Assembly: GCF_040712315.1 (NCBI RefSeq)
Contig: NC_134017.1
Location: 58,752,636 to 58,816,635, forward strand
Source of the DNA: Castanea sativa
Taxonomy: Eukaryota; Streptophyta; Magnoliopsida; Fagales; Fagaceae
DNA length: 64,000 nucleotides
Direction of reading: 5' to 3'
Positions 311 to 64,000 of the stretch are shown piece after piece; position 1 is the stretch's first letter, and each line of letters opens with the position of its first letter. The position numbers were made by a program, and so were the translations under genes. The notes below the pieces were generated by a model. The model had not been told where the DNA came from, made no database searches, and saw only the letters and a program-made list of their open reading frames with translations.

Positions 311-317
311 ATATTAA

Positions 318-40596: not shown

Positions 40597-40641
40597 TTTA
40601 TATAGATGTCATGAAGCTACGTGAGGAATGAAATTCACGTG
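40597..40641 (-). promoter_or_regulatory. TATA box and G-box of decarboxylase copy 1
   Basis: Minus-strand TATATAAA (40604-40597) lies about 150 bases upstream of the ATG. A palindromic G-box CACGTG (40636-40641) lies about 35 bases further upstream. Both are conserved in copy 2. Confidence 0.65.
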
Positions 40642-42357
40642 ATTTTCTTTGAATAGAACACCATTGTCTCAATAGCCACAATCGTTGGGCCTTAGCCTAT
40701 GTTTTGTATCATATGTGGTTTTCCAAATAATTCCATGGGCCCAGATGAACAATAGGAGTAGCAGTTGGAAGTCCAAAATATGTAGTTGGAAGTCCAAAAT
40801 ATGTAGCCACAGTGTTTAGCCTTAACTTTCATAGCGAATATCTTGAAGATTGAAAGTTTCGAGATATATCAGGATAGATGTATTCCAACACGTTGAAGAT
40901 TGAAAGCTTACCATGACAAGCTTACCATTACGTAATCAATCTCTAGTGATTTGAATTGCTTTAACGTATTACAAAATGGAAAAATTCTATCATATATGCA
41001 CTAATACACATACTCTTGTACACACACAATTTTGCGTGTATATTAGTCAGTATGTAATAAATACTACATTTACAAGAATTTCATTTCCTACTGTTGATGC
41101 CCAGATAAACAATAAGAGTAGAAGTTAGAGGTTTGGAATCTAGCTATCTAGATATATGTAGCCACAGTGTTTAGACCCTTTTAAATATACACCACTGTAA
41201 GTTACTTTAAAAAAAACATTCTCCCCTCTCCCTATGTGTGTGTGTGTTAAAAATACTTAGTATTCTAAAAAAAAAAAAAATTTTCCTAGTGAATATCTCG
41301 AATATCTCGAAGATTGAAAGCTTCAAGATATATCAAGGTATATGTATTCCAACACGTTGAAGATTGAAAGCTTACCACGTCAACCTAACCATTACGAAAT
41401 CGGTCTCTAGTGATTTGGATTTCTTTAACGTATTACAAAATGGAAAAATTCTGTTATATATGCACTAATACACATAAACTTGTACACACACAATTTTGCG
41501 TGTATATTAGTGAGTATGTAATAAATACTACATTTACAAGAATTTCATTTCCTACTGTTGATGCCCAGATAAACAATAAGAGTAGAAGTTAGAGGTTTGG
41601 AATCTAGCTATCTAGATATATGTAGCCACAGTGTTTAGGCCCTTTTTGGATATACACAACTGTAAGTTTCTTTAAAAAAACCTTCTCCCCTCTCCCCGTG
41701 TGAGTGTGTATTAAAAATACTTAGTATTCTAAAATAAAATAAAATAAAATAAACTTTCCTAGCGAATATCTCGAATATCTCGAATATCTAGAAGATTGAA
41801 AGCTTCAAGATATATCAAGATATATGTATTCCAACACGTTGAAGATTGAACGCTAACCACGTCAAGCTTACCATTACGGAATCAGACTCTAATGATTTGG
41901 ATTGCTTTAACGTATTACAAAATGGAAAAATTCTGTGATATATGCACTAATACACATACTCTTATACACACACAATTTTCAGTGCATATTAGTGAGTATG
42001 TAATAGATACTACATTTACAAGAATTTCATTTCCTATTTTTGATGCCCAAATGAACAATAGGAGTAGAAGTCGGAGGTCCAGAATCTAGCTATCTAGATA
42101 TATGTAGCCATAGTGTTTAGGCCCTTTTGGATATACATCACTGTAAGTTTCTTTAAAAAACCATTCTCCCCTCTCCCCTTGTGTGTGTGTGTGTGTGTGT
42201 TAAAAATACTTAGTATTTAAAATAAAATAAAAACTTTCCTAGCGAATATATCGAATATCTCAAAGATTGAAAGTTTCGAGATATATCAAGATATATGTAT
42301 TCCAATACGTTGAAGATTGAAAGCTTACCACGTCAAGCCTACCATTACGGAATCGGT

Positions 42358-43514
42358 CTCTAGTGCATGGTTTTGAAACCCGAACCGTTTATTGAACCAT
42401 CAAAGGGAGAGGTTTATGGTTTTTGAGGTCGAACCGGGATCGAATCGTGATTACATCATAATTAATTTAATAATTATTTTAAATATATATAAAAATATTA
42501 AATTAGTAAAAAATAGAAAAAAATAACTAAAGTAGTCCAATTAAAACTATAAATCAATATTTTAACTGTGTCTATTATATCCATCTCAAACCCAAATATG
42601 AAATATCTATCCAATAATAATAATAACCATTTTTTTATAAAAAGAAAATTAAAGCATCATTTTGTACCTGTAAGTGGACAAAAGATATGATGTATCATCA
42701 TATCATGTGGGGCTCAAGGCTTTGTAAGAAACAAAGTCTCAAATTGTCTTTCAAATTCCCACTTTCCAATGCCCATGTGACCTGCGGTCTAGCTCACATT
42801 CACAAACCTAAAAAAGCACTAGAAACAAAAGTGAATGAAATTAAAGGAAGAGATAAAAAAGCAATACAAACAAAAGCAATTGAAACTAAAGGAAGAGAGA
42901 AGAAGAAGAAGTCAGAAATGGCTCTAGAAGTCTCCACCTTGGTCAAACAAGCTGATCTCTCTCTCATCTCCACTTTGTCTCCATGCTACAATGGTATCAC
43001 TCCCGATGCCGTCCCTTCTGCCCCTACCTTCCTCCAAATCTCTGATCATGTTTACAACCTTCTCCACGGTTTCTATCTCTCTCTCTCTTATAGTCTTTGT
43101 TTGCTTGCTCAGAAAATTTTGTGTTCTGATTTTACTTTTGGATTTTGTTTTAATGACTGAGGTGGAGCTAAGTTACTGTTTGGTTGATGAGATAATAAAA
43201 TAGCGGGTGGTAACGTAGCTCTATTTTATTTTATTTTTTCTTTTTTGATTTCTTTTTCTTTTTATTCAAATTCTTTACCAGTGGATATTTTTTTTCCTGA
43301 CCAAAAATAGTAAATATTCTGGTATGGTGTCGTTTAAGGCTTTAAATTTCTTTTTTTAAAGGGGACCTATGAGGTCCGATCGCGGTTCGCACCGGTCCCT
43401 GCTTTTTCCCCACAGAGCAGTTCTTGAGGCTAAAAAATTGGAAAAATTAGCGGTTTGAGGTTTTCCTGGTCGGACCGTACGGTCCGGTCCAAGTTTCAAA
43501 ACCATGCTCTAGTG
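42358..43514 (+). mobile_element. hAT-type non-autonomous element with captured exon, copy 1
   Basis: Element 42366-43506: CATGGTTTTGAAACCCG at the left and the inverted AAGTTTCAAAACCATG at the right. Direct 8-bp flanks CTCTAGTG lie at 42358-42365 and 43507-43514. Subterminal GAACCG/CGGTCC motifs. Internal ORF 42687-43160. Confidence 0.88.
42687..43160 (+). other. Captured exon-like ORF in hAT-type element copy 1, 157 codons
   Basis: Starts MMYHHIMWGSRLCKKQSL. It has a Lys/Glu-rich middle and then MALEVSTLVKQADLSLIST..., ending near NLLHG where CTCCACG|GT looks like a donor site. The original gene probably began at the inner ATG (42918). The same frame is open in three further copies (56697, 58770, 60380). 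The parent gene is not recognised. Confidence 0.6.
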
Positions 43515-44558
43515 ATTTGGATTGCTTTAACGTATTACAACGTGGAAAAATTATGTTATATATGAACTAATACACATACTCTTGTACACACACAATTTTG
43601 TGTGTATATTTGTGAGTATGTGATAGATACTACATTTACAAGAATTTCATTTCCTACTATTGATGCCCAGATGAACAATAGGAGTAGAAGTCGGAGGTCC
43701 AAAATCTAGCTATCTAGATATATGTAGCCACAATGTTTAGGCCCTTTTGAATATACACCACTGTAAGTTTCTTTAAAAAAACCATCTCCCCTCTCCCCGT
43801 GTGTGTGTGTGTTAAAAATACTTAATATTCGGAAAAAAAAAAACTTTCCTAGCGAATATCTCAAAAATTGAAAGCTTCAAGATATGTGTGTTCCAACACG
43901 TTGAAGATTGAAAGCTTACCACGTCAAGCTTACCATTACGGAATTGAACTCTAATGATTTGGATTGCTTTAACGTATTACAAAATGGAATTATTCTGTTA
44001 TATATGCACTAATACACATACTCTTGTAAACACACAATTTTGTGGGTATATTAGTGAGTATGTAATAGATACTACATTTACAAGAATTTCATTTCCTATT
44101 GTTGATGCCCAGATGAACAATAGGAGTAGAAGTCGAAGGTCTAGAATCTAGCTATCTAGATATATGTAGCCACAGTGTTTAGGTCCTTTTGGATATACAC
44201 CACTGTAAGTTTTTTTAAAAAAACATTTTCCCCTCTCCCCGTATGTGTGAGTTAAAAATACCTAGTATTCTCAACAACAAAAAATTTCCTAGCGAATATC
44301 TCGAAGATTGAAAGCTTTGAGATATATCAAGATATATGTATTCCAACACGTTGAAGATTGAAAGGTTACCACGTCAAGCTTTCTATTACGTAATTGATCT
44401 CTAGTGATTTGGATTGCTTTAACGTATTACAAAATGGAAAAATTATGTTATATATGCACTAATACACATACTCTTGTACACACACAATTTTGTGTGTATA
44501 TTAGTGAGTATGTAATAGATGCTACATTTACAAGAATTTCATTTCCTATTGTTGATGC

Positions 44559-45879
44559 CCATTTTCTATGAAAGGCCCAATAATAGCAGAAGCTCAACAA
44601 TAAGGGAAATTGAAAGAAAAAGAAATAGGAATGGTAAAAGCAAGTTAGTAAGCCCAATGGGTCTGCATGACAAGAATAACAACCATCAGGCCCATGGGAA
44701 GAATAAGAGTAAAGATGAAGTTTTTGGGCCAGGGAAGCCCAAGAAAAGAGGTAGCAAGCCCAATGGGCCAGCATGGCTGGAATAACAGCTAGTAGTCCCA
44801 TGGGAAGAATAAGGAGAAAAGATAAGGAAAGTGGGCAGGAAAAGCCTGAGGAAAGAGGTAATAGGCCCAATGGATCAACATGGCCAGCAAGCCCATGGAA
44901 TGGAAAAGGAATGGCAGGATTAGGCACCCAATGAGCTATACGGACAGAGGCCCTTGTCTGGACAATGCCTGTTCCACGGAGGGTAATGCAAGCCAAAAAT
45001 CCCACGCATGCCTCATGCCGCAAAAGACAAACTTTACCAAGCACACGTGGCAGAAGAATACAGCGCAAGAGCGGCAAAAAATGGCATGGGAATGAAAGAA
45101 GACAAACCTAGACGGTAGTGGCACTCGCACAAGGCCCAGGGCACAACCTACGTGTACCCAGCCAATACATGGGAAGTGGGTCCTCGGTCAAGGGATTCAA
45201 CGGGTGTGGTTTTGAGGTTGGGAGAAAAGAGATCTATTCTGGGGTTCCTACTAAGTCTCCTTTCGGGAAAATACTTTGTTGGGATGACATTTCTCCTAAA
45301 AGAGGTAAATACAAGCTAGGACCACTTGATGCATGCCATACGGGTAGGTATAGAGAACACTCAACCCTTATCCGCTGAGGGGAGACTAGGTAGTGAGAGG
45401 GAGAGAAACAAAACACGAATTTTTGTTTGGAAATGTGGTGCGGCAAGCACCATCTGAGCAGAGGTAATGGCCAGGCAACCAACAGGCTAGTGGGTAGTCT
45501 TGGAAAGATGCCAAAAGTAGTTGGTACAGCCTTAGGGACAAAAGGGAGAAATCCCATAAATTTAAGCAAGTATAAAAGGGATAGAGGTAACCATGAACCG
45601 GGGATGAACGGAAGGAGGAAGGAGTGACAAAAGGTAGATAGAAAACACCCAGAGAGAAAAGAGAAAAGAAACTCAAAAGAAAATAAGAAAATCAAGTGGT
45701 AAGGTAGAGAGAGTTATGACAGAAATAGAGACATGCATCAATAGATCAAATTTTCTCTCCCCTTGACATTCCCACCTTCTTGAACCGATAATCTAGAACA
45801 CGATATGATAAGTGATTACAATAAAGTATTGAAACATATTGCTATAGAACACAAACTGAAAAGTTTTCTAATGAAACGT
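44559..45879. other. Duplicated block D, copy 1, unclassified
   Basis: Begins TTTTCTATGAAAGGCCC exactly where the last repeat unit stops and matches 61383-62702. Contains three degenerate ~125-bp repeats with GCCCAATGGGYCARCATG (44660-44905) and a TATAAAAGGG box near 45571. It could be part of a large LTR; no coding domain is visible. Confidence 0.6.
44660..44905 (+). repeat. Degenerate ~125-bp tandem repeat in block D copy 1
   Basis: Units marked by GCCCAATGG at about 44657, 44758 and 44865 and by CCCATGGGAAGAATAAG between them. Also present at about 61480-61745. Confidence 0.7.
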
Positions 45880-46354
45880 ATTGCTATCAGTGGCGGAGCC
45901 AGGATTTCAATTCAGGGGGGGCAAGATTAGAAGTCAATATTAAGAAGAAAAAAAACAGAAAAAATCCATATTAACAAAAAAAAAAAGCAATAACAACTAT
46001 AAGTATCATACGAAAACTAATTAAACGTAAACTATAGTTAGACATTTAAGTTAATACTATAAAATAAATTGCGGAAATAAATTAATTTGAAAATATTAAA
46101 AGTATAGCAATTTACTTGCAAAGTTGTATACACGTCTCACTATCTTTTGTTAATTGTTTTGGAAACTATAGGTAAAATTCGACTTTCTATTTATTTTTCA
46201 AAATAATTAAAAATTTTGTTCATAACATAAACCCACAATTTAAAACTAAAATGTCAATAAATTGAGGACAAAAAACAATTGTGTAAAATATAGGACTATC
46301 AATTGAAATGTCATAAGAAAGAAACTAAAATGCATGATGATGATGATGATGATT

Positions 46355-46356
<2 letters not shown>

Positions 46357-46386
<30 letters not shown>
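46357..46386 (+). repeat. (TTG)n microsatellite
   Basis: About ten GTT/TTG units, preceded by (GAT)n. Confidence 0.9.
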
Positions 46387-47160
46387 AAGGTCACAATTTG
46401 GCGCCCCAGCCCAACAAAAAGGGGTACGTAGGCCCAAAAAGCCCGATACAACAAATTTGTAGAGTGTGAGCTAGAAATCTTGGTTCTAATGAGTTTGAAC
46501 GGTCATGACAATGACCCAAGATCACAAAACCATATAGATGAACAAGTTTATAAAATGAAATTTATTCTCGGACTCAAGCCGAGAACCTAATGTTTATATT
46601 CTTCTTTCTCCAAAGATTCTTTTCAAGTCTCCTCCCCCCTTTTCTACAGGAGCTCTCCTCTTCTTATAGTCCCTTTCCCCCTCTCTCTAGATTCAGATTG
46701 CTCCCCTTGATACTTGTCTCATCCGCATCTTTTGGAAGTCCCTAGATAATAGCTGTAAGGCTGAATATCATTGTTCAGGTATCACTTCCTCATAAATGCA
46801 GCCAGAGACTTTGGCACAGAGCATTCAATGCGGTGGTAGCAGCTTTCTCTAAGATATTTTTTTTACCCCCCCCTGCTCTTTGTGCCCCTTTTTCAACATA
46901 TCTTCATCCCCTAGACCTTCTAAAAATATCATTCTAATTAACATGACGCATCACTTGATCCTTGTTGTACTCAGCCGAGGAGGTAGTCTTCCTCAGATTA
47001 TTTACATTTACCTCATCTACCACACTTACTTCCAGGGCTATACGTTTGATATCATTATTACCATTAATTCGTCCTCGAAAAATCAGTCGTCCTCGAAAAA
47101 TCAGACGTCCTCGGCTAAGCCCACGGCCCAAAAACGTATCTTGGGTCTTTCGCCCCCACA
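46384..47160 (+). mobile_element. Possible solo LTR nested in the hAT element
   Basis: Starts TGTAAGGTCACAA and ends TTCGCCCCCACA (TG...CA). Absent from the equivalent position in unit 2. It lies between a (TTG)n run and an (ATT)n run, so the 5-bp target duplication is obscured. Confidence 0.45.
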
Positions 47161-48502
47161 ATTATTATTATTATTATTATTATTTGTTTGCTTGTTCTTT
47201 TTTTCTATTTCTTTTTATCTCTAAGTCACCACTCTCTCACCTCTCTCTCTCTCAACTCTCAACTCTCAACTCTCTCTCAACTATCAACGGCTTAACCGTC
47301 GCCGGCCCATCCCCTGAAAGTGGCCGGAGATCCAATCTGATCATTCCTGAAAGTGGCCGGAGATCCGACGCGTCGCTACCAGTGCCAGAGAAGAATTTTC
47401 GTTTCGCCGCCACTACCACACTCACCACCATCCAAACACAGTTCAAATAGCTCATATTTGATTATTTTTTTCTCCAAGAAATCGATTATTTTGGTGTCAT
47501 TGCTACTCTGAATTCTACATGAAAGCACAACTGAGTTTTGAAGATTTCAAGATTTTGGAACTGGGATCGTGCTTACCTTGGATCTGTGGAGAAAATGAGG
47601 GCTCTGTGGACTTGGGGTTAACACAGGTGATCAGAGGAGGAGAGTGTACGATCGAAGAAGTGGATGTGAAGTATTGGATCCAAGTACGGAGGGGGTGTTG
47701 GTATCCAAGAGCTAAAGAAGAGTCTCTTTAAGTCTACAAGACTTTATCTCTCTGAGAAATTGAAGCACTGTGGGTTTTATTTTGGTGGTTGTGGGTTGAT
47801 TTTCTTGGGTAGTTGTGGGTTGATTTTGGTGGTCGTGGTGACAGTAGGAGTAGACTATGGGCAAGGTGGTTGTGGTGGCGGTAGGAGTAGACTATGGGCA
47901 GGGTGGTGGTGGTGGGCTGTATGAAGTGGTGGTGGCTATGGTGGGATGTATTGTTTTATTGTAGTAGGTATATTATTTTATTGTGATATTTATATTCTTT
48001 TATTGTGCTAAAAGTTAAAATAGATCCACTATTGCCAGATATTTTGTAAAATGAGTAGATAAAATAGATAAAGTAACTTTTAGTGGTGCCATATAGCTAA
48101 AAATATAGACCCACTACTGTGGATGCTCTTAAAAGCTAACAGCTGACAAGTCAAAGCTCTTGGTGTGTGTTATTATTCCTAAGGGAAATTCTTCCATTTA
48201 TTGGGCATTAGGTAAGCTTGTTTTCTATTTTCTGTTTTTTTTTTTTTTCCCTTACACGGTGTCATTGACTTATTGGGCATTAGGTAAGCTTGTCATTTTC
48301 CCTTTGTCTCAGTAGGGCAAGAAGCTTTTTTCCTGATTTGTGTTTAATTTCTACATCAAGGAGGGTAAAGCATTTTTAAAAATTACTAATAGTAGTACAT
48401 ATGGAATATTTTAGGAGGAGTCAATGGGGCACTCCCCCCCCCCCCCTTGCTCCGCCTCTGATTGCTATAAGAATATTTTATTAATTTATTAATATCCTAA
48501 GA

Positions 48503-48783
48503 CTTAGTATGACATTTGCATGTTCCTGCACCACATTCCAAGCCGTGATAATGTGTCGTTCCTTAACTAGAGTTGCACCAACGGCAAATCATATCACACA
48601 TACTCCCTCGACCATAGCATGAGTCATGAAGACACAGCCCGACATGTTAATGGACTCCAACAATTTGTGGTTTGCCTCATTTGCAAGTTCCTCGCTTACT
48701 TTGTCTAGCTTACCATTTTTGTATACTGTCTCACTTAGTGCCGATGACAAAATCTTGAAACAAACCATGGCAAAATTTATAGG
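48503..48783 (-). pseudogene. Decarboxylase copy 2, C-terminal end (distal part of left arm)
   Basis: Matches 38921-39200 of copy 1 (C-terminal ~90 codons, sense on minus). The stop codon is missing because the duplication junction falls at 48503. The coding sequence is interrupted at 48783 by the copia element and resumes at 53992. Confidence 0.92.
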
Positions 48784-48972
48784 TGTTAACGTACACTCAT
48801 ATGTGGGCTTGGCCCATTTAGATCACTTACTTGTACTGCACTTGGCACTACTTGTCTTTGCACTTTTCATATTTACTTGTACTGGCACTTTCATATGCCT
48901 CCTATATAAAGGCACTCATGTATATTATTTTACTTGAGAAATACAATACTATTCAATTCGGTATTTCTAACA
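48784..48972 (+). repeat. 5' LTR of the copia element, 189 bp
   Basis: Carries CTATATAAAGG TATA box near 48901. Differs from the 3' LTR mainly in a short region around CACTTGGCACTACTTGTC. Confidence 0.93.
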
Positions 48973-48984
48973 TGGTATCGAGCC
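48973..48984 (+). promoter_or_regulatory. Primer binding site of the copia element
   Basis: TGGTATCGAGCC lies immediately after the LTR end, a variant of the initiator-Met site TGGTATCAGAGC. Confidence 0.75.
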
Positions 48985-49259
48985 TTTGCTGCGACCTTTT
49001 CTTCGATCTTGTCTTTATTGGTGTAACTCCATTCTTCATATTGCTTCGTTGTCACAACAAGCGCGCACGATCTTTCGCCGATGAACATTTGAGTCATCTA
49101 GACATCGTCCTCAGGTTCGGACACGGCTTCTTGTTGGGAGTTCGAACCTTTGCAAAGACCACTGCATTTTCGGCACCGCCGTGAATATTGCTCCGAAAAA
49201 TTTTCTGAAGGTACCACGAAGATCGTCTTGCTCCGATCTGCCTGCTCGTGAAAACCTTA

Positions 49260-49570
49260 CAGTCATCGGAGCTTCCACGCGCCCTCACGCGCCGCCCAAA
49301 GGTTCTGCCCTAAAGGTCACGCGCCCACGCGCCTCCACGCGCTGATCTGAGCCGCCACGCGCTGCCACGCGCCGCCACGCGCCGCCACGCGCCAGGTCCG
49401 TCCTGCTGACGTCAGCCCTAGACTCGTCAGCTGCCACGTCAGCCCGTCACATCAGCTTGCCACGTCAGCCTGCCACGTCATCGCTGACGTCACCTTCCAG
49501 TGTGCTGCTGACGTCACCTCTGACCGTTGACCGTTGACTTTGACCGTTGACTTTTCTGGAGTTGACTTTT
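49260..49570 (+). promoter_or_regulatory. GC-rich leader with arrayed ACGT-core and TTGAC motifs
   Basis: Between the primer site and gag, repeated CCACGCGCCG/CCACGCGCTG (about 49265-49395) are followed by TGACGTCA and CCACGTCA repeats (about 49405-49520) and TTGACC/TTGACT repeats (about 49521-49567). These match the core sites of plant bZIP (ACGT) and WRKY (TTGAC) factors. Regulatory function is inferred only. Confidence 0.5.
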
Positions 49571-49647
49571 TCGGGCCAGGTTCTCCTTACTCAGTTTTTC
49601 GCGTAGATTTCATTTTTGCAGTTTGTTTTTGCATATTGTGTCTCTAA

Positions 49648-52600
49648 ATGGATAAAAAGGATGTTTTTCTTCCTCGTCCCATCAATACTGTATTGGAGGG
49701 GACTAGGAATTACTTATCTTGGTCTCAAGCTATGCGCAGTTTCCTTAAGGGTCGCATGCTCTGGCATTATTGCAACGGGTGCAATCACTATTCTGTGAAG
49801 GGAGCAAGTGAAGAAGATGCTTCTTTTCTCAATCGCATGATTGAATGGGATAGTCACAATCACATGATCCTCGCATGGATTCGAAATACTTCCATTCCCT
49901 CCATCTCCAATTTCTTGGGCGGCTTTGATGATGCGAAATCGGCATGGGATATGTTGGCCAAAAGATACTCTACTACTCACGGATCCATGAAATATCGGTT
50001 AGTGGTTGAATTGCATCAACTCGAGGTAAGAGCAGGGACGGAGTCCATCAATGACTACAATGATCGGCTTCGCTTCATTTGGGACCAAATTGACCTTTCG
50101 ATCCAACTTGGGCATGCTCAAAAGATGCCCAACAATATCTTGCTATTAGAGATGAATTTCGTCTCTATGAGTTCCCGATGTCACTCCACAAGGACTATGA
50201 GCCCATTCGAGGTCGGCTCACGAATCGTTTTCCTCCTCCCTCTCTTGATCTTCTTGTGAATGAGTTAGTCGAGAGAAGAAGCTCGCCTTGCAACTCTTCG
50301 AGCCCGGGATAAGTTTAATGTTCTGGCCTTACTCCTTCCATAGAGCAACCTCGGCACTCGGGTGATTCTTCGGCTCCAACAATCGTCGCGAACGACCAAT
50401 AAAAAGTTACTGCAACTATTGCAAGTGCCACAGCCACACTATTGAGACTTGTTACCGTCGCAACAAATCTGCTTGCGCGCAGTTGCTAACACGAGTCTGC
50501 TACTGCGCAATGCCTCCCATTTCGAGTGAGTCCCGGTCTTGGATCCTTTATCAACCTCTCACCCACTTGACCTACGGGAGATCATAGCTCGAAATTTGTT
50601 CGTATGGTAGTAATGCATCTTTTTCCACGCTTCTCTCGGTTTACCGGTAAGTCTCAAACTTGGCTTTTTGATTGCTGTTGCAACCACATGACACCTCACT
50701 CGTCCTTATTCTCTAAACTTGACCACACTCCACATCCCACTCAATATTCACGCCGTGATGGTTCCACCATGCATGGGAATAGTCTTGGTTTTGTTTCAAC
50801 CTCTAACCTCTGCGATTTCTGGGGTCTACCATGTTCACGACCTATCCTATAATTTGTGTTACGTGGGACAATTAGGCGAACTAGGTTATCGCCTTATTTT
50901 TTACTATTAGGTGTATTGTGCGGGATCCAGGGACGGGGCGAGAGCTTGGGACCGGCCCTAGAGTTGGGCGTATGTTTCCAGTGGATAATCTTCATCTTCC
51001 ACCTGTTGCTCCGGTGTCTGTTGCTGCTGCTGCTGCTGCGGTGTCTTCCCTACCTTCTCTCTCACTTTGGCACTCTCGTCTTGGTCATGCACCCTCTTCT
51101 CGGGTACAACAGTTAGTTTCTAAGGGTTTGTTAGGTTCTGTGTCCAAAGACAATTTTGATTGTACTTCATGCCAGTTAGGAAAACAGCCAGCTTTACCTT
51201 TTAATAATAGTGATTCTATTTCCAATAGTATTTTTGAGTTAATTCATTTTGATGTTTAGGGACCTTCTCCTGTTGCTAGTATTGGTGGATCTCGATATTT
51301 TGTTGTTTTCATCGATGATTATTCTCGTTACAGTTGGATATTTCCTATGAAATCTCGTTCTGAAATTTTGCCAATATATAGTAACTTTGCAAAAATGGTT
51401 GAAACCCAATTCTCCAAAAGAATCAAAATATTTCGTTACGATAATGCTCTTGAATACACTCGATATGCTTTTCAAGCTGCGTTACACTCCTATGTGCTTG
51501 TACATCATCTAACTTGTCCAGGTACCTCTCAACAAAATGGTCGAAATTTGAACGTAAACTTCGTCATATTCTTGACAACGTTCGTACTCTTCTTCTTCGC
51601 AAGGTTCCTCCTCCATTAAGGGTGAAGCTGCTCTTCATCTTGTTCACACCATTAACCGCATTCAAGCTTTGCATCATCCATAATCAAACTCCGTATGAGC
51701 GCCTCTTTGGGTCACCCCCTGGCTATCATCACCTTCGCTCTTTTGGATGCCTTGTTTCGTTCTTCTTCGGTCTCATGAGCACAACAAACTTGAGCCTCGA
51801 TCTAGACTCTGTTTGTTTCCTTGGTTATGGCGAAACACAAAAAAGGGTATCGCTATTATGATCCTGTCTCTCATCGCCTTCGTGTTTCTCGTAATGTTGT
51901 CTTACGGGAACACCGCTTGTTTGTTGAACTCTCTCATTTTCGTTCTTCTCTCACTACCTCATACTGTACTTGAAGTTTTCCGGAGGAGTCTCATGTTCCT
52001 TCTCCAACTCCAATTGATCCTCCTTTAGACTTCTCTATCCAAACACCCGATCCTTTTAATGTCTCTTGGGCCTGGTCGAAGATGAACAGATTGATGACGA
52101 GCTATCCCAACTCGAGCCTAGGTCTCCCGCTCCTGCTCCGCCTGAAGATCCTCCACAAGACCTTCCACCTCCACAAGACATTCCACTTCGTCACTCCACC
52201 CGGGTAAGATCCATTCCTACACATTTACTTGATTACCATTGTTACACTTGCACTTGCTACACTCCACGAGCCTCGAGCCTATCGTGAGGCCTCCGCGACC
52301 CTTTATGGCAGGTTGCAATGAAAGAGGAAATTGATGCATTAACCAAAAACCATACTTGGGACTTAGTTCCTCTCCCTCTGGACGTGTTTGTGGTTGGTTG
52401 TAAGTGGATCTACAAGATTAAGACTCGCTCGAGATGGGTCCATTGAGCGCTATAAGGCTCGCCTTGTTGCAAAAGGTTTTACACGGGAGTATGGGATTGA
52501 TTATGAAGAGACCTTTGCACCGAGTTGCCCGCATCTCATCTGTTCGTGCCCTGCGACATTGTTCTTCTTTGCTAGAAAATGGGATCTTTTTTCAGATGGA

Positions 52601-53796
52601 TGTGAAAAATGCATTCCTTAATGGGGACTTGAGTGAAGAAGTTTACATGCAACCTCCTCCAGGTCTCTCCATTGACTCCAACAAGGTTTGCCACCTTCGC
52701 CGAGCATTGTATGGTCTTAAACAAGCTCCTCGAGCACTGGTTTGCAAAATTTAGCTCTACTATTTTTCGCTTGGGTTACACGGCAGGTCCTTATGATCTT
52801 GCCTTATTTCTTCGTCGTCTTGATAAAGGCACCATTCTACTTCTCCTCTATGTGGATGATATGATCATAACTGGTGATGACCTTAGTGGCATACAAGAAC
52901 TCAAGGATTTTCTTAGTCAGCAGTTTGAGATGAAAGATCTTGGACACCTTAACTATTTCTTGGGGCTTGAAATCACTCGTTCCTCAGATGGTCTTTATAT
53001 TACTCAAGCCAAGTATGCTTCTGATCTTTTTGTCTCGTCTTGGACTCGCGACGGCAAAGCGTGACACCCCGGTTAAGCTTAATGCGCATCGACTCCCTCG
53101 GGGGGAAACCATTGTCTAATCCTTCTCTTTACGGACGATTAGTTGGCGGCCTAGTTTATCTCACGGTTACTCGTCCGGACATCTCTTATCTTTGTTCATC
53201 GGGTCAGCCGATGTTGTACGCTCCACGATCGACTCACTATGTTGCGCATTGCGCATTCTTCGTTACTTGAAGGGCACTCTCTTCCATGGCCTTTTCTACT
53301 CGGCTCAATCTCCTCTTGTACTTCGTGCATTCTACGATCTTGATTGGGCGGGGAGATCCCCACGATCGTAGGTCTACCAACGGCTATTGTTTTCTACTTG
53401 GCTCTTCCTTGATTTCTTGGCGAAGTAAGAAACAAACCTTTGTGGCCCGCTCCCGATGCGAAGCGAGAATATCATGCTCTTGCTGATACCACATCTGAGC
53501 TTCTTTGGTTACGATGGCTTCTTACAGACTTAGGTGTGTCTACATCCTCTGCTACACCTCTTTATTGTGATAATCAGAGTGCCATTCACATTGCTCATAA
53601 TGATGTCTTCCATGAACGGACTAAACATATAGAGATTGATTGTCATTTTATCCGTTATCATCTTGTTCATGGTGCTCTCAAGCTCTTCTCCGTCTCCTCC
53701 AAAGATCAACTTGCAGATATCTTCACCAAGTCCCATCCTAAGGGACGCCTTCGTGATTTGGTTGACAACCTCAAGTTGGTCTCACATCCACCTTGA
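49648..53796 (+). pseudogene. gag-pol of the copia element, frameshifted
   Basis: Gag from ATG 49648 (NYLSWSQAMRSFLKGRMLWHY) is open to 50259. A CX2CX4HX4C knuckle is at about 50413-50460. The protease active site reads DCCCNHM instead of the usual DSG form (about 50668). The gag-pre-integrase WHSRLGH is at about 51068. Integrase is at about 51250-51620, with a stop at 51257 and a frameshift right at the catalytic Glu (SQQNGR, then a shifted ERKLRHIL). RT is at about 52380-53035, with [17 protein letters not shown] and an intact YVDDM (about 52849). RNase H with CDNQSAIHIAHN is at about 53565 and ends LKLVSHPP at 53796. At least six frame changes; non-autonomous. Confidence 0.92.
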
Positions 53797-53800
53797 GTTT

Positions 53801-53808
53801 GAGGGGGG
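53801..53808 (+). promoter_or_regulatory. Polypurine tract of the copia element
   Basis: GAGGGGGG two bases before the 3' LTR. Confidence 0.75.
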
Positions 53809-53809
53809 C

Positions 53810-53991
53810 TGTTAACGTACACTCATATGTGGGCTTGGCCCATTTAGATCACTTACTTGTACTGCACACTGTACTTCTTGTACTGCACTCATATTTACTT
53901 GTACAGCACGCATATGCCTCCTATATAAAGGCACTCATGTATATTATTTTACTTAAGAAATACAATACTATTCAATTCAGTATTTCTAACA
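53810..53991 (+). repeat. 3' LTR of the copia element, 182 bp
   Basis: Same ends and TATA box as the 5' LTR, with a few indels. Confidence 0.93.
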
Positions 53992-54306
53992 ATAGGTACC
54001 ACGATTTCAAACCTTTTATCCATAGCTACAAACCCTTCAAAAAGGTTGGCCATTTTCACATGGTTTCTCCTGAATCTCCTGAGGTTAGCTACACCATAAA
54101 TTCTGAGCACAAACCATAATTTCAAGGAATGAAATCTTCGGCGTAGGGCTATCTTCCAGTCTTTATAGTCCACCACTTGCTTGAATCCGAGGCTTTATTC
54201 CTCAAGAACTCAGGGTTGGTTGAGAGTGACTTTATCAAGGTGCTCGGATCTTTTACCCAAATGTAGTAACAATCCAAAGAGGTCAAGAACCATTTGTGTG
54301 CATTGA
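53992..54306 (-). pseudogene. Decarboxylase copy 2, mid-region (proximal part of left arm)
   Basis: Continues the sense (minus) sequence interrupted at 48783, matching about 39196-39506 of copy 1, up to the HKW Lys region. One T is deleted near 54181 (CTTGCTTGAATC against CTTGCTTTGAATC), shifting frame. Confidence 0.92.
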
Positions 54307-54801
54307 TAAAGTCACAAATGGTTCCTAACCTCTTTGGATTGTTGCTGCCTTCGGGTAAAAAATCCGAGTGCCTTGATAAAGTCACTCTCAACCAACCCTG
54401 AGTTCTTGAGGAATAAAGCCTCGGATTCAAAGCAAGTAGTGGACTATAAAGACTGGCAGATAACCCTAAGCCGAAGATTTCGTTCCTTGAAATTATGGTT
54501 TGTGCTTAGAAGCTATGGTGTAGCGAACCTTAGGAGCTTCATAAGAAACCATGTGAAAATGGCCAACCTTTTTGAAGGATTTGTAGCTATGGATAAAAGG
54601 TTTGAAATCGTGGTACCTATAAATTTTGTCATGGTTTGTTTCAAGATTTTTCCATTGACACTAAGTGAGACAGTATACAAAAATGGTAAGCTAGACATAG
54701 TAAGCGAGGAACTTGCGAATGAGGCAAACCGCAAATTGTTGGAGTCCATTAACATGTCAAGCTGTGTCTTTATGACTCATGCTGTGGTCAAGGGAGTATA
54801 A
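54307..54801 (+). pseudogene. Decarboxylase copy 2, inverted duplicate (right arm)
   Basis: The plus strand carries the same coding region, from HKWFL (54313) to AVVKGV (about 54798), matching 39018-39507 of copy 1 in opposite orientation. Open on plus in frame 54334-54801. With the left arm it forms an almost spacer-free inverted repeat: AACCATTTGTG, 14 bases, CACAAATGGTT. Confidence 0.93.
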
Positions 54802-54802
54802 T

Positions 54803-54964
54803 ATGGCCTTGGCTTAGAACCGGGTATTTTTCTACATCGCGATAATAATCGGCAAGGAAGTCTATGATCATATGGCCTTGCATCCTGAATTCCTTGGGGT
54901 CTAATGGGTTAATGCTATGGGAAGAAGTATGGTTGGGCATATGATCAGACTTGAAGCTACCCAT
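54803..54964 (-). pseudogene. Decarboxylase copy 2, first ~50 codons
   Basis: ATG 54964 reads [20 protein letters not shown]...[29 protein letters not shown], then meets the inverted arm. At codon 28 it has ATG where copy 1 has TGA. The coding region for roughly residues 50-315 is absent. Confidence 0.92.
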
Positions 54965-55106
54965 ATATGTGTACTAGGGGGAAAAGAAATGGTTCAAGAT
55001 TCTTTGATTTTTGGGTGGAAGGGTTATAATTGTGGAAAGGAAAAAGTGAAACGAGAAACTAGAGACTATCTTGTAGCTGATGAGATAAAATGAAGGGAAT
55101 GGAGAG

Positions 55107-55151
55107 TTTATATAGATGTCATGAAGCTACGTGAGGAATGAAATTCACGTG
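55107..55151 (-). promoter_or_regulatory. TATA box and G-box of decarboxylase copy 2
   Basis: Same TATATAAA (55114-55107) and CACGTG (55146-55151) at the same spacing as copy 1. The promoter is intact and points into the hairpin locus. Confidence 0.65.
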
Positions 55152-56344
55152 ATTTTCTTGAAATAGACCACCATTGTCTCAATAGCCACAATCGTTGGGC
55201 CTTAGCCTATGTTTTGTATCATATGTGGTTTTCCAAATTATTCGATGGGCCTAGATGAACAATAGGAGTAGAAGTCGAAGGTCCAGAATATGTAGCCACA
55301 GTGTTACGGCTTAACTTTCCTAGGGAATATCTCGAAGATTGAAAGTTTCGAGATATATTAAGATATATGTATTACAACACATTAAAGATTGAAAGCTTAC
55401 CACGTCAGGCTTACCATTACGTAATCGTTCTCTAGTGATTTGGATTGCTTTAACGTATTACAAAATGGAAAAATGCTATTATATATGCACTAATACATAT
55501 ACACACACAATTTTGTGTATATTAGTGAGTATGTAATAGATACTACATTTACAACAATTTCATTTTCTATTGTTGTTGCCCAGATGAATAATAGGAGTAG
55601 AAGTCAGAGGTCCAAAATCTAGCTATCTATATATGTGTAGCCATAATGTTTAGGCCCTTTTGGATATACACCACTGTAAGTTATTTAAAAAAAAAAATTC
55701 TCCCCTCTCCCAATGTGTGTGTATGTTAAAAATGCTTAGTATTCTAAAAAATTTTAAGAAAAAAAAAAAAACTTTCTTAGCAAATATCTCGAATATCTAG
55801 AAGATTGAAAGCTTCGAGATATATCAAGATATATGTATTCCAACACGTTGAAGATTGAAAGCTTACCACGTCAAGCTTACCATTACGGAATCGATCTCTA
55901 ATGATTTGGATTGCTTTAATGTATTACAAAATGTAAAAATTCAGTTATATATGCACTAATACACATACTCTTGTACACACAATTTTGTGGTATATTAGTG
56001 AGTATGTAATAGATACTACATTTACAAGAATTTCATTTCCTATTCTTGATGCCCAGATAAACAATTGGAGTAGAAGTCAGAGGTCCAAAATCTAGCTATC
56101 TAGATATATGTAGCCACCGTGTTTAGGCCCTTTTGAATATACACCACTGTAAGTTTCTTTAAAAAAACCTTCTCCCCTCTCCTCGTGTTTTTGTGTGTCT
56201 TAAAAATACTTAGTATTCTAAAAAAAAAAATTTCCTAGCGAATATCTCGAAGATTGAAAGCTTCGAGACATATCAAGATATATGTATTCCAACACGTTGA
56301 AGATTGAATGCTTACCACTTCAAGCTTACCATTACGGAATCGGT

Positions 56345-57518
56345 CTATAGTGCATGGTTTTGAAACCTGGACCGTTTATTGAACCGTAAAAGGGAGAGAT
56401 TCAAGGTTTTTGAGGTCGAACAGATGTCGAATAGGGGTCGAACCGTGATGACGTCATAATTAATTTAATAATTATTTTAAATATATATAAAAAATATTAA
56501 ATTAGTAAGAAAGAGAAAAATTAACTAAAATAGTCCAATTAAAACTATAAATCCATATTTTAACTATGTCTATTACATCCATCTCAAACCCAAATATGAA
56601 ATATCTATCCAATAATAATAATAATAATAACCATTTTTTATAAAAAGAAAATTAAAAGCATCAATTTGTACTAGTAAGTGGACAAAAGAGGATGATTTGA
56701 TGTATCGTCATATCATGTGGGGTTCAAGGCTTTGTAAGAAACAAAGTCTTAGATTGCCTTTCCAATTTCCACTTTCCAATGCCCACGTGACCCGCTGTCT
56801 AGCTCACATTCACAAACCTAAAAAATCACTAGAAACAAAAGTGAATGAAATTAAAGGAAGAGATAAAAAAGCAATACAAACAAAAGTTGATGAAACTAAA
56901 GGAAGAGAGAAGAAAAAGTCAGAAACGGCTCTAGAAGTCTCCACATTGGTTAGACCAGCTGATCTCTCTCTCATCTCCACTTTGTCTCCACGTTGCAATG
57001 GTGTCACTCCCGACATCGTCGCTTCCGCCCATACCTTCCTCCAAATCTCCGATCGCGTTTACAACCTTCTCCACGGTCTCTATCTCTCTCTCTTATAGAC
57101 TTTGTTTGCTTGCTCATAAAATTCTGTGTTTTGTTTTACTTTTGGATTTTGTTTTAATGACTGAGGTGGAGATAAGTTACTATTTAGTTGATGAGATAAT
57201 ACAATAGCAGGTGGTAACGTAGCTCTATTTTTTTCTTTCTTTTCCGATTTCTTTTTACTTTTATTCAAATTCTATACCAGTGGATTTTTTTTTCCAACCA
57301 AAAATAGAAAATATTTCGGTATGGTGCCGTTTAAGGCTTTAAATTTCTTTTAAAAGAGACCTATGAAAACCGTGAGATCCGAACGCGGTTCGCACGGGCC
57401 CCTGCTTTTTTCCCATAGAGCGGTTCTTGAGGCTAAAAGAACCGCAAAAATGAGCGGTTCGAGGTTTTCTCGGTCAGATCGTACGACCTGGTCCGGGATT
57501 CAAAACCATGATCTAGTG
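56345..57518 (+). mobile_element. hAT-type element with captured exon, copy 2
   Basis: Element 56353-57510 with flanks CTATAGTG and ATCTAGTG. Internal ORF 56697-57098 (133 codons); the inner ATG is ACG here. Confidence 0.87.
56697..57098 (+). other. Captured exon-like ORF, copy 2, 133 codons
   Basis: Same product as 42687-43160. Length differences in the Lys-rich tract are multiples of three. Confidence 0.6.
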
Positions 57519-58443
57519 ATTTGGATTGCTTTAACATATTATAAAATGGAAAAATTATGTTATATAAACACTAATACACATACTCTTGGACACACACAAT
57601 TTTGTGTGTATATTAGTGAGTATGTAATAGATACTACATTTACAAGAATTTCATTCGTATTGTTGATGCCCAGATGAACAATAGGAGTAGAAGTCAGAGG
57701 TCCAGAATATATCTATCTAGATATATGTAGCCACCGTGTTTAGGCCCTTTTGGATATACACCATTGTAAGTTTTTTAAAAAGAAATTCTCCCTTCTCCCC
57801 TCTCCCCATGTGTGTGTGTGTTAAAAATACTTAGTATTCTAAAAAAAAAACTTTCCTAGCGAATATCTCGAATATCTAGAAGATTGAAAGTTTCGAGATA
57901 TACCAAGATATATGTATTCCAACACGTTGAAGATTGAAACCTTACCACGTCAAGCTTTCCATTAGGGAATCGGTCTCTAATGATTTGGCTTGCTTTAACG
58001 TATTACAAAATAGAAAAATTCTGCTATATCTACACTAATACACATACTCTTGTACACACACAATTTTGTGTGTATATTAGTGAGTATGTAATAGATACTA
58101 CATTTACAATAATTTCATTTCCTATTCTTGATGCCCAGATAAACAATAGGAGTAGAAGTCGGAGGTCCAAAATCTAGCTATCTAGATATATGTAGCCATA
58201 GTGTTTAGGCCCTTTTGGATGTACATCACTGTAATTTTCTTTAAAAAAACCTTCTCCCCTCTCCACGTGTGTGTGTGTGTGTGTGTGTGTTAAAAATACT
58301 TAGTATTCTATAAAAAAAACTTTCCTAGTTAATATCTTGAATATCTCAAAGATTGAAAGCTTCAAGATATATCAAGATATATGTATTCCAACACATTGAA
58401 GATTGAAAGCTTACCACGCCAAGCTTACCATTACGGAATCTAT

Positions 58444-59578
58444 CTCTAGTGCATGGTTTTAAAACCCGGACCGTTTATTGAACCATAAAAGAGAGAGGTT
58501 CAAGGTTTTTGAGGTCGAATCGTGATGACATCATAATTCATTTAATAATTATTTTAAATATATATATAAATATTAAATTAGTAAAAAATGGAAAAATTAA
58601 CTAAAATAGTCCAATTAAAACTATAGATTCATATTTTAATTATGTCTATTATATCCATCTCAAACCCAAATATGAAATATCTATCCAATAATAATAATAA
58701 CCATTTTTTTATAAACAGAAAATAAAAGCATCAATTTGTACCGGTAAGTGGACAAAAGAGGATGATCTGATGTATCATCATATCATGTGGGGCTCAAGGC
58801 TTTGTAAGAAACAAAGTCTCAGATTGTCTTTCCAATTTCCACTTTCCAATGCCCACATGACCAGCTGTCTAGCTCACATTCACAAACCTAAAAAAGCACT
58901 AGAAACAAAAGTGAACGAAATTAAGGGAAGAGATAAAAAAGCAATACAAACAAAAGCTGATGAAACTAAAGGAAGAGAGAAGAAGTCAAAAACAACTCTA
59001 GAAGTCTCCACATTGGTTAGACCAGCTGATCTCTCTCTCATCTCCACTTTGTCTCCACGCTGCAATGGTATCACTCCCGACGTCGTCGCTTCCGCCCCTA
59101 CCTTCCTCCAAATCTCTAATCGCGTTTACAACCTTCTTCACGGTCTCTATCTCTCTCTCTTATAGACTGTGTTTGCTTGCTCAGGAAATTTTGTATTCTG
59201 ATTTTACTTTTGGATTTTGTTTTAATAACTGAGGTGGAGCTAAGTTACTGTTTAGTTGATGAGATAATAAAATAGCAGGTGGTAACGTACCTCTATTTTT
59301 TTTTTGATTTCTTTTTACTTTTATTCAAATTCGTTACCAGTGGATATTTTTTTCCGACCAAAAATTGTAAATATTCTGGTATAGTGCCGTTTAAGGCTTT
59401 AAATGTTTTTTAAAAGGGACCTATGAAAACTGTGAGGACCGACCGCGGTTCGCACGGGTCCCTGCTTTTTTCCCATAGAGCGGTTCTTGAGGCTAAAAGA
59501 ACCACAAAAATGAGCGGTTCGATGTTTTCCCGGTCGGACCGTACGGCCCAGTCCAGGTTTCAAAACCATGCTCTAGTG
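58444..59578 (+). mobile_element. hAT-type element with captured exon, copy 3
   Basis: Element 58452-59570 with exact CTCTAGTG on both sides. Internal ORF 58770-59165. Confidence 0.88.
58770..59165 (+). other. Captured exon-like ORF, copy 3, 131 codons
   Basis: Same product. The inner ATG is lost, but the longer frame stays open. Confidence 0.6.
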
Positions 59579-60045
59579 ATTTGGATTGCTTTAACGTATT
59601 ACAAAATGGAAAAATTCTGTTATATATGCACTAATACACATACTCTTGTACACACACAATTTTGTCTGTATATTAGTGAGTATGTAATAGATACTACATT
59701 TACAAGAATTTCATTTCCTATTGTTGATGCCCAGATGAACAATAGGAGTAGAAGTCAAAGGTCCAGAATCTAGCTATCTAGATATATGTAGCCACAGTGT
59801 TTAGGCTCTTTTGGATATACACCACTGTAAGTTTCTTTAAGAAAAACCTTCTCCCCACTCCCCGTGTGTGTGTGTGTGTGGTTATAAATACTTAGTATTC
59901 TAATTTTTTTTTTTTTTTAAACTTTCCTAGCGAATATCTTGAATATCTCGAAGATTGAATGCTTCAAGACATATCAAGATATATGTTTTCCAACACGTTG
60001 AAGATTGAAAGCTTACCACGTCAAGCTTACCATTATGAAATCGGT

Positions 60046-61234
60046 CTCTAGTGCATTGTTTTGAAAACCAGACCATTTATTGAACCGTTAAAGGAGAGGT
60101 TCAAGATTTTTGAGGTCAAACTGAGGTCGAACCGGGGTCAAACCGTGATGATGTCATAATTATTTTAAATATATATATAAATATTAAATTAGTAAAAAAT
60201 AGAAAAATTAACTAAAATAGTCCAATTAAAACTATAAATCCATATTTTAACTTTGTCAATTATATCCATCTCGAACCCAAATATGAAATATCTATCCAAT
60301 AATAATAATAACCATTTTTTTTATAAAAAGAAAATTAAAAGCATTAATTTGTACCAGTAAGTGGACAAAAGAGGATGATATGATGTATAATCATATCATG
60401 TGGGGCTCAAGGCTTTGTAGGAAACAAAGTCTCAGATTGTCTTTTCAATTTCCACATTTCAATGCCTACGTGACCAGCTGTCTAGCTCACATTCACAAAC
60501 CTAAAAAAGCACTAAAAACAAAATTGAATGAAATTAATGGAAGAGATAAAAAAGCAATACAAACAAAGGCAGATGAAACTAAAGGAAGAGAGAAAAAGAA
60601 GTCAAAAATGGATCTAAAAATCTCCACCTTGGTCAGACCAGCTGATCTCTCTCTCATCTCCACTTTGTCTCCACGCTGCAATGGTATCACTCCCCACGTT
60701 GTCGCTTCCGCCCCTACCTTCCTCCAAATCTCCGATCGCTTTTACGACCTTCTCCACGGTCTCTATCTCTCTCTCTTATAGTCTTTGTTTACTTGCTCTA
60801 AAAATTTTGTGTTCTGATTTTACTTTTGGATTTTGTTTTAATGACTGAGGTGGAGCTAAGTTACTATTTGGTTGACGAGATAATAAAATAGCGGGTGGTA
60901 AAGTTGCTCTATTTTTTTTTCTTTTATGATTTCTTTTTACTTTTATTCAAATTCTTTACCAGTGAATTTTTTTTTCAAACCAAAACTAGTAACTATTCTG
61001 GTATGGTGTCATTTAAGGCTTTAATTTTTTTTTTTTTTTAAGAAGGAACTTATGAGAACCGCAAGAATTGTTCACGGTTCTCAAAACTGTGAGGTCCGAC
61101 TGTGGTTCGCACGGGTCAATGTTTTTTTCCCTATAGAGCGGTTCTTAAGGCTAAAAGAACCGCAAAAATGAGTAGTTCCAGGTTTTCCTAGTCGGACTAC
61201 GGTCCGGTCCAGGTTTCAAAACCTTGCTCTAGTG
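60046..61234 (+). mobile_element. hAT-type element with captured exon, copy 4
   Basis: Element 60054-61226 with exact CTCTAGTG flanks. Ends are slightly decayed (CATTGTTTTGAAAACC, CAAAACCTTG). Internal ORF 60380-60781. Confidence 0.87.
60380..60781 (+). other. Captured exon-like ORF, copy 4, 133 codons
   Basis: Same product. The inner ATG is retained (reads MDLKISTLV). Confidence 0.6.
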
Positions 61235-61382
61235 ATTTGGATTGCTTTAACGTATTACAAAATTGAAAAATTCTGTTATATATGCACTAATACACATACT
61301 CTTGTACACACACAATTTTGTGTGTATATTAGTGAGTATGTAATAGATACTACATTTACAATAATTTCATTTCCTATTGTTG

Positions 61383-62702
61383 ATGCCCATTTTCTATGAA
61401 AGGCCCAATAATAGAAGAAGCTCAACAATAAGGGAAATTGAAAGAAAATGAAATAAGAATGGTAAACGCAAGTTAGTAAGCCCAATGGGTCAGCATGACA
61501 AGAATAACAACTAGCAGGCCCATGGGAAGAATAAAAGGTAAAGATGAAGTTACTAGGCTGGGGAAGCCCAAGAAAAGAGGTAGCAAGCCCAATGGGCCAA
61601 CATGGCTGGAATAATAGCTAGTAGGCCCATGGGAAGAATAAGGGGAAAAGATAAGGAAAGTGGGCCGAAGGAGCCCAAGGAAAGAGGTAATATGCCCAAT
61701 CGGTCAACATGGCCAGTAGGCCCATGGAATGGAAAAGGAATGGCAGGAATAGGCATCCAATGAGCTATACGGACAGAGGCCCTTTTTTGGGCAATGCTTG
61801 TTCCACAGAGGGTTATGCAGGCCCAAAAGCCCATGCATGCTTCATGCTGCAAAAGACAAACTTTACCCAGTACACGTGGCAGTAGAATACGGTGCAGGAG
61901 TGACAAAAATGGCGTGGAAATGAAAGAAGACAAACCTAGATGGTAGTGGCACTCACACAAGGCCCAAGGCACAACCTACATGTACCCAGCCAATACATAG
62001 GTGGTGGGTCCTCGGTCAAGGGATTCAAAGGGTGTGGTTTGAAAAGAGATCTATTATGGGATTCCTACTAAGTCTCCTTTTGGGAAAATACTTTGTTGGG
62101 ATGACATTTCTCCTAAAAGAGGTAAATACAGGCTAGGACCACTTGATGCATGCCATACGAGTAGGTATAGAGAGCACTCAACCCTTATCCGCTAAGGGGA
62201 CACTAGGTAGTGAGCGGGGGAGAAACAAAACAAGAATTTTTGTTTGGAAATGGGGAGTGGTGTGGCAAGCACCCTCTGAGCAGAGGTAATGGCCAGGCAA
62301 CCAACAAGCTAGTGGGTAGTCTTGGAAAGATGCCAAAAGTAGTTGGTACAACCTTAGGGACAAAAGGGAGAAATCTCATAAATTTAAGCAAGTACAAAAG
62401 GGATAGAGGTAACCATGAACAGGGGATGAACGGAAGGAGGAAGGAGTGACAAGAGGTAGATATAAAACACCCAAAGAGAAAAGAGAAAAGAAACTCAAAA
62501 GAAAATAAGAAAATCTAGTGGTAAGGTAGAGAGAGAGTTATGATAGAAATAGAGACATGCATCAATAGATCGAATTTTCTCTCCCCTTGACATTCCCACT
62601 CTCTTGAATCCATAATCTAGAATACGATATGATAACTGATAACAATAAAGTACTAAAACGTATTGCTATAGAACACAAACTGAAAAGTTTCTAATGAAAC
62701 GT
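61383..62702. other. Duplicated block D, copy 2
   Basis: Matches 44559-45879 with modest divergence and small indels (for example a shorter segment after GGTGTGGTTT near 62035). No coding domain seen. Confidence 0.6.
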
Positions 62703-64000
62703 ATTGCTATCAATGTTGGAGCCAGGATTTCAATTCAGGGGGGCAAGATTAGAAGTCATTATTAAAAATAAAAATAAAAACAGAAAAAATCTATATTAAC
62801 AAAAAAAAAAAAGAACAATAACAACTATAAGTGTCATACAAAAACTAATTAAACGTAAACTATAGTTAGACATTTAAGTTAATACTATAAAATAAATTTT
62901 GTAAATAAATTAATTTGAAAATATTAAAAGTATAGCAGTTTACTTGCAAAGTTCTATACACGTCTCACTATCTTTTTTTAATTGTTTTTTAAACTATAGG
63001 TAAAATTCTACTTTCTATTTATTTTTCAAAATAATCGAAAAATTTGTTCATAACATAAACCCACAATTTAAAACTGAAATGTCAAGAAATTGAGGACAAA
63101 AAAAAAATTGTGTAAGATATAGGACTATCAATTGAAGTGTCATAAGAAAGATACTAAAATGCATGATTATTGTTATTATTATTATTGTGCTAAGCTTAAG
63201 TGCATGATAATTAAGAGCATTAGCAGCAGTGAAGCTAAATAGCTATATAGCTATTTTAGCTTCACCAAAACACAAAAATCCATGCTACAATAGTGGTGCC
63301 ATAGGTAAAAAAATTTACCTTCTTGCTACAATGCACAGCTATTTATGGTTGTGCACTGTGTAAGTAAAAGCTAAAAAAATTTATTTTTTTATTCTCCCTC
63401 CCGTTAAATTATTATTTGTTTGTTCTTTTTTTTTTTCTATTTCTTTTTATCTCTAAGTCACCACTCTCTCACCTCTCTCTCTCTCAACTCTCAACTCTCT
63501 CTCAACTGTCTCTGGCTCATTCGTCGCCGACCCGTCCCCTGAAAGTGGCCGGAGATTCGATCCGATCATTCTTGAAAATGGCCTGAGATCCGACACGTCG
63601 CTATTGGTGCCAGAGAAGAATTTTTGTTTCGCTGCCACTGCCACACTCGCCGCCATCCAAACCCGATTCAAATAGCTCATATTTGATTTTTTTTTTTTTC
63701 TCCGAGAAATCGATTAGCTTGGTGCCATTGCTACTCTGAATTCTACATGAAAGCACAACTGGGTTTTGAAAATTTCAAGATTTTGGAACTGGGATCGGGC
63801 TTACCTCGGATCTGTGGAGAAAATGAGAGATCTGTGGACTTGGGTCAACACAGGTGATTGAAGGAGGAGAGTGTACGATCAGAGAAGTGGATACAAAGTA
63901 TTGGATCCAAGTACGGAGGTGGTGTTGGTATCCAAGAGCTGAAGAAGAGTCTCTTTGAGTCTACAAGACTCTATCTCTCCGAGAAATCGAAGCTCTGTGG
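62703..64000. mobile_element. hAT element, second copy, running off the window
   Basis: TSD ATTGCTAT 62703-62710; decayed left end CAATGTTGGAGCCAGG from 62711; then the same interior as 45888 onward. Lacks the 777-bp solo-LTR-like insert. At 63211 it carries TTAA followed by GAGCATTAGCAGCAGTG, which looks like the left end of a nested element whose right end survives in copy 1 at about 48128. Confidence 0.8.

Follow-up and report, generated by a model that had tools for sequence, protein, structure and literature searches.

The window analysed here, a stretch of 64,000 nucleotides (C5:58752636-58816635; GC 36%, 0 N) within a searched genome of 716 Mb in 13 contigs, carries two copies of a tyrosine decarboxylase gene, the second of which is rearranged into a head-to-head inverted duplication. 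Copy 1 (38914-40452, minus strand) was delimited by translation and by tblastn with residues 1-512 of the Quercus rubra protein P0001 (90%); its closest proteins are the tyrosine decarboxylases of Quercus, namely P0001 (92%) and those of Q. lobata (89%) and Q. robur (88%), which points to the genome of an oak or a close relative. A TGA stands at codon 28, counted from the MGS start, where P0001 has arginine, and an in-frame ATG shortly past it leaves a 481-codon open frame. In the region shared with the inverted arms, copy 1 has 8 non-synonymous to 4 synonymous changes (N:S 8:4), about as expected without constraint, and copy 1 is itself decaying, as judged from its sequence. Comparison of the translations gives VDATYAES in copy 1 for VDAAYAGS in P0001, a stretch which is presumably near the active site of the enzyme. 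The changes in copy 1 (38914-40452) sit beside conserved residues.

The family occupies at least 11 places in the genome, one of which has both arms head to head, and several close copies share the chromosome of the window. Nine paralogue stretches were fetched for comparison, including L008, L009, L010, L011 and L016. L008, L009, L011 and L016 each gave one full-length tblastn match without a stop, L010 is a pseudogene with four stops (tblastn), and L008, about 2.3 Mb away, is the best conserved among the paralogues examined. Paralogues with an open frame lie at C5:56.53 Mb, 56.47 Mb and 28.45 Mb. Elsewhere in the window, direct repeats (1-317 and 6934-7250, 96.8%) flank RT_RNaseH and Tf2-1 SH3 frames, and the element at 1-7250 resembles an LTR retrotransposon of fairly recent insertion; the open frame 8175-8849 encodes a serine aminopeptidase S33 / alpha-beta hydrolase domain (Hydrolase_4, E 2e-30).

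Tandem units and anatomy of copy 2

The two copies belong to two tandem units. Unit 1 (38921-48502, about 9.6 kb) matches unit 2 at its right end up to 48500 and 64730, respectively; unit 2 (48503-64000) is opened by copy 2 and continues to 64730, 730 bases past the window (L017), beyond which the right ends of the units diverge. The units align at 40296-41894 with 54808-56352, 41300-44406 with 55325-58451, 44399-46359 with 61227-63188 and 47176-48500 with 63408-64730, in registers that overlap because of repeats of about 450 bp inside the region. These repeats lie 5' of both gene copies (40800-44560 and 55300-61390), are common to both units and are in many cases 85-95% identical. Open frames within the units at 42687-43160, 44448-45077, 45234-45695, 58770-59165 and 60380-60781 (five of the ten proteins scanned) gave no Pfam match. 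At the right end of unit 1 the homology ends at 48500, and at 48503 the 3' end of copy 1 (38921) begins anew, with no clear microhomology by eye at this junction; since 48503 is the tandem duplication junction, the arm beginning there (arm A) starts inside coding sequence.

Read leftward, copy 2 consists of the promoter, 52 codons, a flipped 3' part of the gene (arm B), 14 bases and the unflipped counterpart (arm A). The initial annotation had described a copy keeping a TATA/G-box promoter block and about 50 codons on the minus strand, followed by an antisense piece of about 490 bp and the same region in sense some 14 bases away, and this description holds in all its parts. A pattern search located TATATAA (55108-55114) and CACGTG (55146-55151) within 55107-55151 on the minus strand, both motifs being present in copy 1 as well, and tblastn aligned residues 1-52 of P0001 with 54964-54809 (minus, 77%). 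In the self-comparison, 54808-55295 matches the copy 1 region 40296-40785 (93.5%). Arm B (54313-54800, plus strand) matches copy 1 39504-39017 in inverted orientation over 488 bp (93.9%, E 7e-177), is a tyrosine/DOPA decarboxylase by sequence and has an open frame; residues 316-478 of P0001 align at 54310-54798 (+). Arm A lies in two pieces on the minus strand, a loop-side part (53997-54306; 53992-54306 matches copy 1 39197-39512 in the same orientation, 92.1%) and a distal part holding the gene 3' end in sense (48503-48783; 48503-48784 matches 38921-39202, 92.9%). The corresponding minus-strand tblastn matches are residues 314-357 at 54307-54176, 356-419 at 54182-53991 and 418-511 at 48783-48502. 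Arm A has one stop and a frameshift from a 1-bp deletion in its loop-side part. Copy 2 as a whole enzyme is ruled out, as 783 bp are absent, the order is scrambled and arm A is frameshifted.

The repeat search paired the inner arms 54181-54298 and 54313-54430, 14 nt apart, and the outer stretches 53992-54182 with 54430-54620 and 48600-48784 with 54615-54799. Total arm overlap is 488 bp. Next to the loop, the stem postulated earlier would join 54313-54620 with 53992-54298, its length being refined from about 315 bp to about 308 bp. Further out, arm A is interrupted by a copia-type LTR retrotransposon (48784-53991, plus strand), as had been proposed; the element has two LTRs (48784-48972 and 53810-53991, 90.5% identical in the blastn alignment) and a target-site duplication, ATAGG, at 48779-48783 and 53992-53996. 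The name copia follows the initial annotation and the look of the coding part. Self-comparison and motif search show that its 3' LTR (53810-53991, plus strand) carries TATATAA at 53922 and is aimed into the inverted arms.

Junction scars and origin of the inversion

Both junctions of the inverted piece carry short templated fillers. The 13-bp filler at junction 1, TTGATAAAGTCAC (54303-54315, plus strand), has exact copies in both arms and in copy 1 (54373-54385 on the plus strand; 54226-54238 and 39432-39444 on the minus strand); the filler itself shares 4 bp with arm A and 3 bp with arm B. The 11-bp filler at junction 2, ATATGGCCTTG (54801-54811, plus strand), recurs exactly at 54870-54880 and 40358-40368; it shares 4 bp with the promoter block and none with arm B. 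A chance match within 3 kb on both strands, assuming equal base use, is expected at about 9e-5 for a 13-mer and 1.4e-3 for an 11-mer; the stretches searched total about 5 kb, which raises these chances about 1.7-fold, the choice of window being uncorrected. Locally templated fillers and microhomology, the marks of template switching, are thus both found at the inversion junctions, with 3-4 bp at three of the four filler edges.

In plants and animals, small insertions copied from the flanks have been described as a hallmark of end joining by Pol theta (PMC12426944), and paired inverted insertions in yeast have been ascribed to template switching (PMC11724301). Such cases resemble the present one in their short flank-copied fillers, minimal microhomology and inverted pieces, and differ from it in that the inverted piece here measures 488 bp and lies at the junction of a tandem duplication of about 9.6 kb.

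We favour, with reasonable confidence, the formation of a promoter-bearing pseudogene by microhomology-mediated template switching, with Pol theta or MMBIR as the type of mechanism; the tandem duplication probably arose in that event too. The copying strand would have restarted at 38921 and copied about 590 bp, switched strands through the 13-bp filler and copied 488 bp in reverse; the 11-bp filler would then have been taken from the gene start and copying resumed at 40296, leaving 783 bp of the gene (39513-40295) missing. Without the copia element, which would have entered arm A after the rearrangement, all breakpoints fall within about 1.1 kb. An RNA read from the resulting locus, whether leftward off the gene promoter or rightward out of the copia 3' LTR, would fold into a stem of about 300 bp. 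A single event for tandem duplication and inversion would fit the divergence and site pattern given below, as would two events close in time; the preference for one event, the identity of the polymerase and any RNA are inferred. Against this account stand the fourth filler edge and the tandem junction, both without clear microhomology.

The Kimura distances (K2P) are of similar size throughout, at 0.081 between arms A and B, 0.074 between arm A and copy 1, 0.065 between arm B and copy 1, 0.071 and 0.089 for the unit flanks, 0.058 for the promoter block and 0.100 for the LTRs (182 sites). The tree groups the two arms (support 75, stem 0.004), and the AU test gives 0.88 for A+B, 0.39 each for A with copy 1 and B with copy 1, and 0.113 for B+L008, none of them rejected. 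A+B is therefore not significantly better than either pairing with copy 1, which counts against the favoured account, and neither L008 nor copy 1 is rejected as the source of arm B in the topology tests. Grouping arm B with the pseudogene L010 was tried and rejected by AU (0.030) and KH (0.049), not by SH (0.064). Arm B and the distant L010 have three derived sites in common, which may stem from recurrent changes or from past gene conversion, and these outnumber the two derived sites common to A+B alone (one with only gaps in the outgroups), a further point against that account; A with copy 1 and B with copy 1 have none.

The open order of A, B and copy 1, the unrejected B+L008 grouping and the three sites common to B and L010 would also suit an origin of the arms from two gene copies of a longer array, one of them inverted, joined by deletion. 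We regard this as unlikely, as both fillers are copied from this very locus, the derived sites exclusive to a pair are found in A+B and in neither pairing with copy 1, and B+L010 fails two of the three tests.

Constraint on the arms and hairpin potential

The initial annotation had proposed that a leftward transcript of copy 2 would fold into a hairpin able to silence copy 1 and other family members. The folding itself is borne out by prediction: inverted duplicate arms able to pair are present, and the fold predicted for the leftward RNA (54803-53992) reaches -538 kcal/mol and joins the arms by 293 pairs, of which 9 are G-U, with uninterrupted runs of 78 and 58, compared with -216 for the one control used, a copy 1 RNA of the same length (no shuffles). 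The rightward RNA, which could start in the copia 3' LTR given its TATATAA, folds at -544.

Exact 21-mers in common with L008 number 105 of 468 in arm B, 96 of 290 in the loop-side part of arm A and 22 of 261 in its distal part. In the same order, the counts are 104, 31 and 55 for copy 1, 104, 40 and 16 for L011, and 100, 42 and 5 for L009; the more distant L016 gave 0. Any siRNAs produced here could therefore act on L008 about as readily as on copy 1. The likeliest fate of a hairpin RNA in plants is dicing into siRNAs of 21-24 nt. If RNA is made here, such siRNAs would most likely act mainly on the hairpin locus itself. Detectable siRNAs in some tissue are conceivable, if somewhat less probable than their absence, and silencing of paralogues is possible; a real effect on them is unlikely. 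A check for miRNAs gave no match in the window to any Rfam family at gathering scores.

Sequence divergence argues against maintenance of the stem. Between the arms 37 of 487 sites differ, compared with 132 of 1947 (Fisher P 0.55) and 128 of 1531 (P 0.64) in the unit flanks. Pairing thus shows no sign of being kept, and the excess conservation over the flanks that selection on the stem would leave was not found. By comparison, L009 and L011 are closer to each other than the arms are (10/491, P 4e-5), and the lower divergence between L008 and L011 (25/488, P 0.12) does not depart significantly from that of the arms.

Changes in the arm region were further counted against the majority base of the seven copies. 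N:S is 2:13 for L008, 9:5 for L011, 9:7 for L009 and 16:8 plus two stops for L010, and of the seven copies L008 alone is clearly below the unconstrained expectation. Arm A, at 17:7, has changed nearly as if unconstrained (17.9 of 24 changes expected to be non-synonymous), and arm B has 11:9 (expected 14.1 of 20, P 0.10). A three-way count over 163 codons assigns 15N:4S unique changes to arm A and 10N:9S to arm B, three of the latter falling in the junction codon 308, with one multiple site; another 7N:6S separate copy 1 from both arms, and at six of the seven N sites the change lies in copy 1 (by eye, from P0001). The open frame and 11:9 ratio of arm B leave room for a longer period of coding constraint. 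C>T/G>A changes, counted as a possible trace of methylation decay at siRNA-directed sites, are high in arm B (13/20) and not in arm A (10/25), the other copies having 7/12 (copy 1), 7/15 (L008), 5/14 (L011), 6/16 (L009) and 9/26 (L010).

A working silencing locus, in which the gene promoter drives a hairpin RNA whose siRNAs lower the expression of tyrosine decarboxylase paralogues, has in its favour the kept promoter motifs, the 293-pair stem with its long runs, the 21-mers matching L008 and a soybean inverted-repeat precedent (PMC3534067). Nevertheless, it is unlikely: the arms have drifted like the unit flanks, the arrangement occurs in one of at least 11 places, and past the inner stem a leftward transcript runs into 5.2 kb of antisense copia with an AATAAA on the same strand at 53566. 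Of the silencing claim in the initial annotation, sufficient similarity for a small-RNA match stands; the drifting arms and the decaying copy 1 speak against a maintained silencing role. Very unlikely, too, is a hairpin silencer made in one repair step with its own gene promoter, to which the copia 3' LTR subsequently added another promoter facing the opposite way; if true, double-stranded RNA against the tyrosine decarboxylase family could come from either strand and could become LTR-inducible.

Misjoining of an inverted piece in assembly, for which several close family copies on the same chromosome provide some ground, is highly improbable, as the arm differences make a fold-back of one molecule unlikely, none of the other copies compared exceeds 93.9% identity to arm B, the locus around the junction (L001) has 0 N, and the fillers and target duplication are clean. 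We give scarcely any credence to arm B as an expressed small protein (frame 54334-54801, 155 codons) with the copia 3' LTR as its promoter, since, for all its open frame, 11:9 ratio and upstream LTR TATA, it covers only enzyme residues 316-478 and its N:S is not significantly below expectation (P 0.10).

Known inverted duplicates and significance

The inverted repeats at Arabidopsis PAI, rice Lgc1 and Antirrhinum niv-525 are natural inverted duplicates linked to the silencing of relatives. Genetic effects are known there, and the likeness of the chestnut locus, seen from its sequence, is that of a natural inverted duplicate. In soybean, the I locus carries CHS inverted repeats, and the aquaporin NIP6-1 inverted repeat on Gm14 measures 621 bp and has sequenced siRNAs (PMC3534067). 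The soybean cases share with ours a natural inverted gene duplication and double-stranded RNA matching relatives (621 bp against an overlap of 488 bp), and differ in that their siRNAs were sequenced, the present locus being known from DNA; the loop is 14 bases here and about 1,000 nt in the aquaporin repeat, and the copia-split arm and templated fillers are found here. The model in which new miRNA genes come from inverted duplication (PMC3237417) likewise places a target-gene fragment, derived from a pseudogene, inverted beside itself; unlike in that model, the stem here is long and the window has no Rfam family match.

A search for copies of arm B annotated in oaks, covering proteins of similar length, gave 149 proteins at E <=1e-3 among 173 candidates, and none of the matches listed (120 of the 149) combines more than 75% identity with more than 60% coverage of arm B. 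Among the papers listed, no title or opening lines described this locus or an inverted repeat of a tyrosine decarboxylase in oaks, which leaves absence from print unproven. Features beyond the initial annotation are the tandem junction, the templated fillers, the hairpin-facing copia 3' LTR and the other paralogues in the genome.

Taken together, the locus is a real inverted gene-fragment duplication of a known kind, capable of giving double-stranded RNA, which most likely arose as a by-product of repair and is now drifting. The similar divergence of arms, flanks and LTRs allows a natural test of selection on the hairpin, of which the sequence gives no sign. Furthermore, the scars are still readable and show how a promoter-bearing hairpin locus can arise when copying goes astray where a tandem duplication is joined, an origin that constitutes the first step required by the inverted-duplication model of new silencing loci.
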